A DNA stretch of 33,005 nucleotides, from assembly GCA_947589555.1 (NCBI GenBank), contig CANQAZ010000012.1:1-33005 (forward strand). The letters run 5' to 3'. Shown here piece after piece: positions 12,524 through 14,913 of the stretch. The notes under the pieces are model-generated. The model saw only the letters and a list, made by a program, of their open reading frames with translations, had not been told where the DNA came from and did no database searches. This DNA is from an uncultured Clostridia bacterium. Lineage in GTDB: Bacteria; Bacillota; Clostridia; Christensenellales; Borkfalkiaceae. The translations under genes and the position numbers were made by a program. The stretch's first letter is position 1. Each line of letters starts with the position of its first letter.

Positions 12524-13372
12524 ATGGCAAAGGAAAAAAAACCCGTAGATTTCGACGGCTTATTCGATGAAAAATTGGCGCAATATATGCGCGAAAATGC
12601 GGGAAAATACACCGAAAAACAGTGGGAAAACCTCATTCCGAAACTGTACAGGCAATTCGGCGGCATCACCATTCCGAAAATCGGCACGACGCCCGTGGGG
12701 TATTTTTCCGAGTGCTCCGACGAGGAACTCGTCGCCCTTCTCGTGCGCTATGTGGAGGAGGATGTGCCCGTCAGCGACTTTTTGTGCCGCGAATTGGAGG
12801 GCAGAAATTGCCCGCCCGCGCTCATCGCCCTCCTCGAAAAGGGGGACGAGCGCATCCTGACCCTCGCCGTCAACCTCGCGGGGGACAATCCCGCCGCTTT
12901 CGATGCCTACTTCGGCATTTTGGAGCGCTCGGAGGACGTCGAACTCAAAGATACCGTTGCCGAACAACTCAAATCGGGCGCGGACAAGGCAAAGGAACGC
13001 GCGCTTGCGTATTACGCGCGCGGAGTGGAACGCGAACTTATGTTGGAGATCCTCTCCCGCTGTAAGGAGCGCGACGAGCGCATCTACGACATTCTCATGA
13101 ACGAATTCCGCACGAACGGGGAGATCCCCATGCACGCCAGTTACCTCGCCGCCTACGGTGACGAGCGCGCGTTGCCCGCGCTCCTCGAAACCATCGACCG
13201 CGAAGATATCAACTACCTCGAATATCAGGAATTGAAATTCGCCATCGAGGCGCTCGGCGGCGAATACACCCGCCCGCGCGACTTTTCGAACGATCCGTAT
13301 TTCAAGGAGATCGCCGAACAATCGAAATTGCCGCCCGACTTCGATCCCCTCAAAAAGCCGCAAACAAATTGA
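12524..13372 (+). CDS. uncharacterised HEAT-repeat-like protein
   Basis: alpha-helical repeat pattern (AYGDERALPALLETIDREDINYLEYQELKFAIEALGGE); translational spacing to the TPR gene. Confidence 0.5.
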   Translation: MAKEKKPVDFDGLFDEKLAQYMRENAGKYTEKQWENLIPKLYRQFGGITIPKIGTTPVGYFSECSDEELVALLVRYVEEDVPVSDFLCRELEGRNCPPALIALLEKGDERILTLAVNLAGDNPAAFDAYFGILERSEDVELKDTVAEQLKSGADKAKERALAYYARGVERELMLEILSRCKERDERIYDILMNEFRTNGEIPMHASYLAAYGDERALPALLETIDREDINYLEYQELKFAIEALGGEYTRPRDFSNDPYFKEIAEQSKLPPDFDPLKKPQTN

Positions 13373-13381
13373 GGCATTGCG

Positions 13382-13410
13382 TCATAACCGTTCCGTCTCC
13401 GCCATATAGT
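13382..13410 (+). promoter_or_regulatory. spoIVA: candidate sigma-E-type (mother-cell) promoter of spoIVA
   Basis: TCATAAC-N14-CATATAGT, close to the B. subtilis sigma-E consensus (about KMATATT-N14-CATACAnT). Confidence 0.5.
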
Positions 13411-13446
13411 ATTCAAGCAAGGACTATCCGGCGGAGGCGGTTTTTT
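13393..13446 (+). terminator. terminator-like hairpin overlapping the spoIVA promoter and Shine-Dalgarno
   Basis: CCGTCTCCGCC (13393-13403) pairs with GGCGGAGGCGG (13430-13440), 11 bp with one U-G; inner ATAGT/ACTAT; TTTTTT 13441-13446. Confidence 0.7.
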
Positions 13447-14913
13447 ATGGAAACTTTCAGCGTATATGAGGACATTGCAACGCGTACGGGAGGGGAAATT
13501 TACGTGGGCGTTGCGGGACCCGTGAGAACGGGCAAATCGACGTTCATCAAAAAATTCATGCAGGAACTCGTCCTGCCGAGCGTGGAAGGCTCCAAGCGCC
13601 AGCGCTATGTGGACGAATTGCCGCAGTCGGCGGCGGGCCGCACGGTGATGACCACAGAGCCCAAATTCGTGCCCGAGGAAGGGGCGCAGATCCGCGTGAA
13701 GGACGCGGTCGCGAAGGTGCGGCTCATCGACTGCGTGGGCTTCCCCGTTGCGGGGGCTTCCGGGTTTGAAGAGGAGGGCGCGCCCCGCCTCGTCAAGACG
13801 CCGTGGAGCGAAACGCCCGTTCCCTTCGAGCAGGCCGCCGAAGAGGGTACGCGGCGGGTCATCAGGGACCATTCGACCATCGCCATTCTCATGACGACGG
13901 ACGGCTCTATTGCGGGGATCCCCCGCGACGCCTACGAGGAAGCGGAGGCGCGCACCGTGGCCGAAGCGAAAAAAATAGGCAAGCCCTTCGTTATCCTGCT
14001 CAACTGCAAGGAACCCGCGGGCGCGGAAGACCTGCGCGCCGCCCTCGAAGAAAAGTATGCGGCGCCCGTCATGGCCGTCAACGCCGAGGAGATCGATGCG
14101 CAGGGCATCAACGCCGTCATGGAGCGCATCCTCTACGAATTCCCGGTGCTTTCGGTGGACGTCGATCTGCCCGCGTGGATGCGCGTTCTCGACGCCGATT
14201 CTCCTCTCATCTCCGAAGTGCTCGCGGGCATCCGCGAAGTCGCTCCCAAGATCGTCAAGATGAGCGACTGCGCTCTCCTCGACGGTCTGTATGCGAACAG
14301 TACGCGCCTGTTGCCGCCCGTCTCCTTCGATCTCGACGCCGCAACGGGCAGGGCGCACTGCCGCATCGAGGCCAAAGACGGGGCGTTCTACGAAGTGCTC
14401 GGCGAAGCGTGCGGCGAGGATATTTCCGACGATTTCGCCCTCATGAGTTACGTTTGCCGCCTTGCGGAGGCCAAACGCGTGTACGAGAGGGTGGGCAAGG
14501 CCTTTGCCGATGCGCAGGAGTACGGCTACGGCATCGTGCCCCCCGAAGAGGAGGAGATGAACCTTGCGGAGCCCAAAGTCGTGAAAAAGAGCGGGCGCGT
14601 GGGGGTCAACCTCAGAGCGGATGCGCCCAGTTATCACATCGTGCGCGTGGACGTCCACGGCGAAGTCAGCCCCGCCCTCGGCACCGAGGAGCAGAGCGAA
14701 GCGTTCGCCCAAAAACTCACCGAGAGCATGGGCACGGAGCCCGAAACGGCGTGGAATACCAATATGTTCGGCAAGACCCTCAAAGAGATGCTCGGCGAGG
14801 AACTCTCGGTCAAGAACCGCGCGATGGGGGGCAACGTGCAAAAGAAGATGAGAAAGACGATGACGCGCATCGTCAACGAAGGCAAGGGCGGCGTCATCTG
14901 CATCCTGCTTTAA
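13447..14913 (+). CDS. spoIVA: stage IV sporulation protein A (spore coat morphogenetic ATPase)
   Basis: METFSVYEDIATRTGGEIYVGVAGPVRTGKSTFIKKFMQELVLP, DELPQSAAGRTVMTTEPKFVP, C-terminal RIVNEGKGGVICILL; start 13447 with GGAGG 9 nt upstream. Confidence 0.97.
   Translation: METFSVYEDIATRTGGEIYVGVAGPVRTGKSTFIKKFMQELVLPSVEGSKRQRYVDELPQSAAGRTVMTTEPKFVPEEGAQIRVKDAVAKVRLIDCVGFPVAGASGFEEEGAPRLVKTPWSETPVPFEQAAEEGTRRVIRDHSTIAILMTTDGSIAGIPRDAYEEAEARTVAEAKKIGKPFVILLNCKEPAGAEDLRAALEEKYAAPVMAVNAEEIDAQGINAVMERILYEFPVLSVDVDLPAWMRVLDADSPLISEVLAGIREVAPKIVKMSDCALLDGLYANSTRLLPPVSFDLDAATGRAHCRIEAKDGAFYEVLGEACGEDISDDFALMSYVCRLAEAKRVYERVGKAFADAQEYGYGIVPPEEEEMNLAEPKVVKKSGRVGVNLRADAPSYHIVRVDVHGEVSPALGTEEQSEAFAQKLTESMGTEPETAWNTNMFGKTLKEMLGEELSVKNRAMGGNVQKKMRKTMTRIVNEGKGGVICILL

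Follow-up and report, generated by a model that had tools for sequence, protein, structure and literature searches.

A sporulation promoter nested in a predicted terminator hairpin upstream of spoIVA in Borkfalkiaceae-like gut Clostridia

The DNA immediately upstream of spoIVA in the window (the entire stretch analysed here, 33,005 nt from an uncultured Clostridia bacterium) appears to combine a developmental promoter with an insulator against read-through, a reading to which we give a probability of roughly 0.78. It rests on computed observations of the sequence, its conservation, covariation and geometry, and its co-variation with separate terminators. In the inferred mechanism, polymerase arriving from upstream would transcribe both arms of a hairpin (13393-13403 and 13430-13440) together with a T6 tract, and the read-through RNA would fold into an intrinsic terminator and release the polymerase around 13441-13446, immediately ahead of the AUG. 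Read-through RNA that escaped would have its Shine-Dalgarno sequence (SD) locked in the stem and would be translated poorly. Polymerase carrying σE would start near 13417, in the loop, and its RNA, lacking the 5' arm, would neither terminate nor hide the SD. The inferred purpose is to keep a spore-coat gene silent until σE acts; silence of spoIVA in vegetative cells, as suggested by the first-pass annotation of this DNA, is likewise an inference.

That annotation had described a σE-like promoter inside a terminator hairpin whose 3' arm contains the SD, and on rereading the sequence we found the hairpin, SD, T6, ATG and promoter each at the position given for it (Table 1). The main stem, read directly, is 11 bp long and is followed by T6-ATG, while the promoter, GTCATAA-n15-CATATAGT, occupies the 5' arm and the loop. 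With 11 bp and T6, the element fulfils the sequence criterion for an intrinsic terminator, namely a GC-rich stem with an adjoining T-rich tract. The fold of an 86-nt RNA has a predicted energy of -30.4 kcal/mol (z -3.8), and none of 200 shuffles was equally stable. A simple terminator scan did not flag the hairpin because its loop is longer than 8 nt, and an Rfam search with the element returned no family (best E 0.11, far under the gathering score). The spoIVA product matches SpoIVA along its full length (TIGR02836, 561 bits against a cut-off of 460), which confirms the start codon. No Pfam or NCBIfam family matched the 282-aa protein encoded upstream, leaving its earlier "HEAT" label unconfirmed. 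The stop codon of that gene lies 8 nt before the -35 element, so that no space remains in the window for a separate terminator. The criterion for a σE-type promoter, a conserved -35/-10 register before the gene in a genome with a σE-like gene, is also fulfilled, activity being inferred; the SigE-like protein scores 345.7 bits, just under the cut-off of 348.6. A GCAA motif follows the -10 element at a fixed offset, near the predicted +1, in 56 of 89 genomes (window copy 13417-13420), and it is present also in clades that have lost the hairpin.

Table 1. Features of the spoIVA upstream element in the window and, in the last four rows, of similar elements elsewhere in the same genome
Feature	Position	Strand	Basis
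Upstream co-directional gene, 282 aa, presumed source of read-through	12524-13372	+	
-35 element GTCATAA of σE-type promoter	13381-13387	+	Sequence read directly; register shared with 88/88 Gallimonas relatives
Promoter spacer, 15 nt, 3' part complementary to SD region	13388-13402	+	Spacer shuffles, T-group
Main stem 5' arm CCGTCTCCGCC, absent from predicted σE transcript	13393-13403	+	Sequence, fold, SD opening cost, arm position relative to +1
-10 element CATATAGT	13403-13410	+	Sequence read directly; register in relatives
Inner 5-bp stem, 5' arm ATAGT, within -10	13406-13410	+	Fold
Predicted σE start site, in loop	13416-13418	+	Inferred from σE geometry
Inner stem 3' arm ACTAT	13423-13427	+	Fold
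Main stem 3' arm GGCGGAGGCGG, one U-G pair	13430-13440	+	Sequence read directly, fold
SD GGAGG of spoIVA, within 3' arm	13433-13437	+	Sequence read directly; relatives
T6 tract of predicted terminator, abutting start codon	13441-13446	+	Sequence read directly; T-tract comparison
spoIVA (SpoIVA, TIGR02836), presumed protected gene, ATG at 13447	13447-14913	+	Profile match
Second σE-like promoter, GTCATAA-n15-CATACCCT, inside SD terminator hairpin before 126-aa DUF3792-like membrane protein	G000:C2:40948-40999		
M1-peptidase-like lipoprotein: σE-like promoter and SD terminator hairpin, 5' arm starting just after -10	G000:C25:19588-19652		
Small CotF-like protein: σF/σG-like promoter overlapping SD terminator hairpin	C20:12723		
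140-aa protein: σF/σG-like promoter overlapping SD terminator hairpin	C25:17604		

Conservation was examined within the genus Candidatus Gallimonas, a group of uncultured gut Clostridia to which named relatives assign the window; "family" here denotes the genome group (f1) that contains Gallimonas, which we take to be Borkfalkiaceae in GTDB. spoIVA is present in 97 of 101 genomes of the genus, and upstream DNA was compared for 90 sequences, window included, with 88 relatives providing enough upstream sequence. In all 88 the best promoter has exactly 20 nt between its CATA cores, where 18-23 nt were permitted, which speaks against chance. SD pairing is kept in the sequences with a T-tract (the T-group). 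There the spacer-SD duplex averages -20.8 kcal/mol, compared with -11.2 for shuffled spacers (z -25), and 43 of 43 sequences are paired at p<0.05 against such shuffles. This number includes the window and a borderline sequence, L035; n is 42 when L035 is counted outside. The T-group spacers also pair better with their own SD regions than with permuted partners (0 of 2000 permutations as good). Position by position, the SD core does not vary and the flanking pairs change on both sides; at SD+5, for example, G-C is replaced by A-U, and at SD+6 C-G gives way to A-U. The pair-position table was taken from the best duplexes and is biased to pairing, a bias from which the permutation test is free. 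All sequences are metagenome-assembled genomes, and the relatives are not independent. One genome carries a second SpoIVA-like frame (G073:C31:7972-9435), 41% identical, which may be a paralogue or lie on a foreign contig.

The predicted geometry separates the two kinds of transcript. In the window, the predicted cost of exposing the SD is 16.3 kcal/mol for the read-through RNA and 4.6 for a transcript begun at 13417, in line with the earlier proposal that the SD is sequestered in the former and freer in the latter; the T-group medians are 13.4 and 4.9 kcal/mol, respectively. At spoIVA, the 5' arm ends before the predicted +1 in 42/42 sequences of the T-group and in 24/26 from the family; the same holds for 28/30 spoIIR and 29/29 spoVT sequences. 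Given the predicted start site, the element meets the definition of an occluding hairpin, one holding the SD but formed only by RNA initiated upstream. Among the points against an insulator, the SD of the predicted σE RNA is still not free, its opening costing about 4.6 kcal/mol, and a U-rich spacer between SD and ATG can be favoured for translation alone.

The layout extends beyond the genus. In genera of the family other than two, g3 and g8, the same layout is found with unrelated stems, 24 of 26 sequences being paired (p<0.05) and 24 of 26 having a T-tract. When each of 14 genera, that of the window among them, is represented by a single sequence, pairing averages -15.5 with own partners and -11.6 with permuted ones (0/2000). 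Genus g8 falls in between, with 3/7 sequences paired and none having a T-tract. In genus g3 a terminator with the -10 element in its 5' arm occurs in 11 of 13 sequences, its T-tract ends 24-58 nt before the ATG, and the SD lies outside this promoter-holding terminator. Genus g3 has thus kept the terminator, itself a prediction, without occlusion of the ribosome-binding site (RBS). Among 19 readable loci sampled from other families of the order, two were paired and none had a T-tract.

The T-tract has been lost within Gallimonas, and its loss tends to coincide with the presence of separate terminators. In a tree of 90 SpoIVA proteins, the non-T sequences fall mainly in three clades of 24, 17 and 5 genomes (c24, c17 and c5), plus L035. 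In these clades the T-tract is gone and pairing decays (z -5.7, -1.2 and -1.8, respectively), while the promoter is kept. Separate intrinsic terminators, scored in a fixed window reaching at most 110 nt upstream of the -35 element (chance rate in shuffled DNA 1.9%), were detected in 28/46 non-T and 3/43 T sequences (Fisher 4.5e-8). Regrouped by clade, with L032 placed in its clade and L035 counted outside the T-group, the figures become 29/47 outside and 2/42 within. The link is strong by counts and without significance by independent pairs, since the tree contains only about 5 changes of T-tract state, which is too few. Of the 47 genomes outside the T-group, 18 lack both a T-tract and a detected terminator. 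This anticorrelation and genus g3 lend independent support to the terminator reading of the first-pass annotation, the 3' ends remaining predicted.

Similar elements precede other genes. In a search of the same genome short of an exhaustive count, the pattern GGAGG-N0-4-T5-N0-3-ATG fits 18 places, compared with 2 for the reversed pattern. A significant SD hairpin occurs at 9 of the 18, and 7 of these 9 also have a sporulation-type promoter, as judged by eye: spoIVA, spoIIR, spoVT and the genes for a small CotF-like protein (named by eye, without a family match), a DUF3792-like protein (a weak match), an M1-peptidase-like lipoprotein and a 140-aa protein (Table 1). A σE pattern with an obligatory final A proved too strict, as it misses a second promoter. 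A TM1266-like regulator gene has an SD terminator hairpin and no evident sporulation promoter (G000:C13:6951-6983), and folding of the upstream region of sigG from this genome gave no nested hairpin of this sort. Of the seven genes, only spoIVA, spoIIR and spoVT were followed across genomes, and the positive result is limited to these; spoIIR and spoVT were each compared over 30 genomes. Their NCBIfam scores are under the equivalog cut-offs, and their promoters are labelled σF (spoIIR) and σG (spoVT) by resemblance. At spoIIR, GTATAAA stands at a fixed 20-nt distance from a -10-like element in 29/29 sequences, 23/30 are paired and 26/30 have a T-tract (permutation 0/2000); at spoVT, 21/30 are paired and 29/30 have a T-tract (2/2000). 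Loss of stem covariation had been named beforehand as an outcome that would refute the model; stems covary within the genus, across the 14 genera and at spoIIR.

A further candidate, sigK, looked alike in its own genome but was rejected, as its hairpin is not conserved across 30 relatives. These have a clear, conserved σE-type promoter and no conserved SD hairpin, and sigK now serves as a negative control; the device is therefore no rule for every σE gene. A conserved CATAGGACAA is found at the sigK -35 region. It resembles a SpoIIID box, which would fit the expected control by σE and SpoIIID.

The strongest competing explanation is that the element is a terminator and nothing more: a 3'-end signal belonging to the upstream operon, which compaction has pushed on top of the spoIVA promoter, with SD pairing as an unselected by-product. 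We regard this as possible, though not the better account. The g3 terminator holds the promoter and not the SD, clades with a separate terminator lose T-tract and SD pairing alike, and sigK, which has no terminator, shows no conserved SD hairpin, all as it would predict. It does not readily account for the large difference in SD opening cost that the layout yields, nor for the weak pairing that clade c24 retains without a T-tract. The stem is also centred on the SD at three genes, yet any terminator abutting the ATG tends to include the SD.

It is unlikely that, conversely, the hairpin only occludes the RBS, in the style of T4 lysozyme, with the T-run as a mere U-rich spacer between SD and ATG. 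The closest precedents do act in this way, and the opening costs (13.4 and 4.9 kcal/mol) suit such a role, but the T-tract tracks pairing and opposes separate terminators, and g3 has hairpin and T-tract away from the SD. Still less credible is regulation of the gene's own RNA by a leader or attenuator, such as one under protein or ligand control. Its sole argument is that a terminator and SD hairpin before a start codon resemble attenuators, whereas the 5' arm is promoter DNA upstream of the predicted +1 in 42/42 sequences, Rfam gave no match, and pairing is conserved while stem sequences are not. Finally, chance pairing of a C-rich spacer with a G-rich SD in a GC-rich genome, where short CCTCC..GGAGG pairs are common enough (69 matches, 51 for the reversed pattern) that a generic scan for them is too noisy alone, can hardly be reconciled with the spacer shuffles, the covariation, the permutation result over 14 genera (AT-rich stems included) or the scarcity of pairing and lack of T-tracts in the sampled other families.

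Within the insulator reading, termination seems to be the main role, with RBS occlusion as a likely further layer that may or may not be selected in itself. Termination is the better-supported of the two, given its replacement by separate terminators in some clades and the arrangement in genus g3. The comparisons support, at the level of sequence, a refined version of the original model: termination and occlusion can be separated, genes other than spoIVA also carry the device, and it is a trait at family level.

Several known systems share parts of this logic. The transposase genes of IS10 and IS50 have a start that is hidden in read-through RNA from external promoters and not in RNA from their own promoter; these are mobile elements, however, with no developmental sigma factor. 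A conventional intergenic intrinsic terminator has the same GC-rich stem and T-tract, and replaces the element in several clades, but the spoIVA element builds the promoter and SD of the next gene into stem and loop. For sigG (spoIIIG) of B. subtilis, which lies downstream of another gene, the accessible part of one report proposes that a hairpin of 20+ bp keeps read-through RNA from being translated, and that transcripts from sigG's own promoter are unable to form it (PMC5942855). As at spoIVA, this is a read-through-only hairpin at a sporulation gene; no terminator function is described for it in that part of the report. In T4, according to the portions available of two papers, the e (lysozyme), soc, 49 and I-TevI genes have a late promoter in the DNA that specifies the 5' half of a hairpin sequestering the SD, with translation of the late RNA and not of the early read-through RNA (PMC3014915, PMC2988022). 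There too promoter DNA doubles as the SD-hiding arm, but these are phage genes with T4 late promoters and occlusion only, and the same portions describe no U-tract terminator function. The occlusion logic is thus already established for the T4 genes and proposed for sigG. Our literature search, from which subscription papers were largely absent, found no precedent for a promoter inside a terminator. As far as could be found within that coverage, the new features are that the hairpin is fused with a terminator and that this combination recurs at σF, σE and σG genes within a single bacterial family.

On balance we favour, with less assurance than for spoIVA itself, a general promoter-in-terminator design for sporulation genes of Borkfalkiaceae-like gut Clostridia (σF spoIIR, σE spoIVA and σG spoVT). 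In such a design non-transcribed promoter DNA would be selected as the complement of the SD of its gene, giving termination and a translation block in one compact element, evolutionarily exchangeable with an ordinary terminator; because of this exchange, the function can be tested directly. A design rule suggested for compact insulated promoters is to place the complement of the SD in the promoter spacer. The element would be an unusually clear case of promoter DNA under selection for its effect when transcribed by mistake, and would show how compact genomes keep developmental genes silent when transcription runs on from nearby genes in the same direction.
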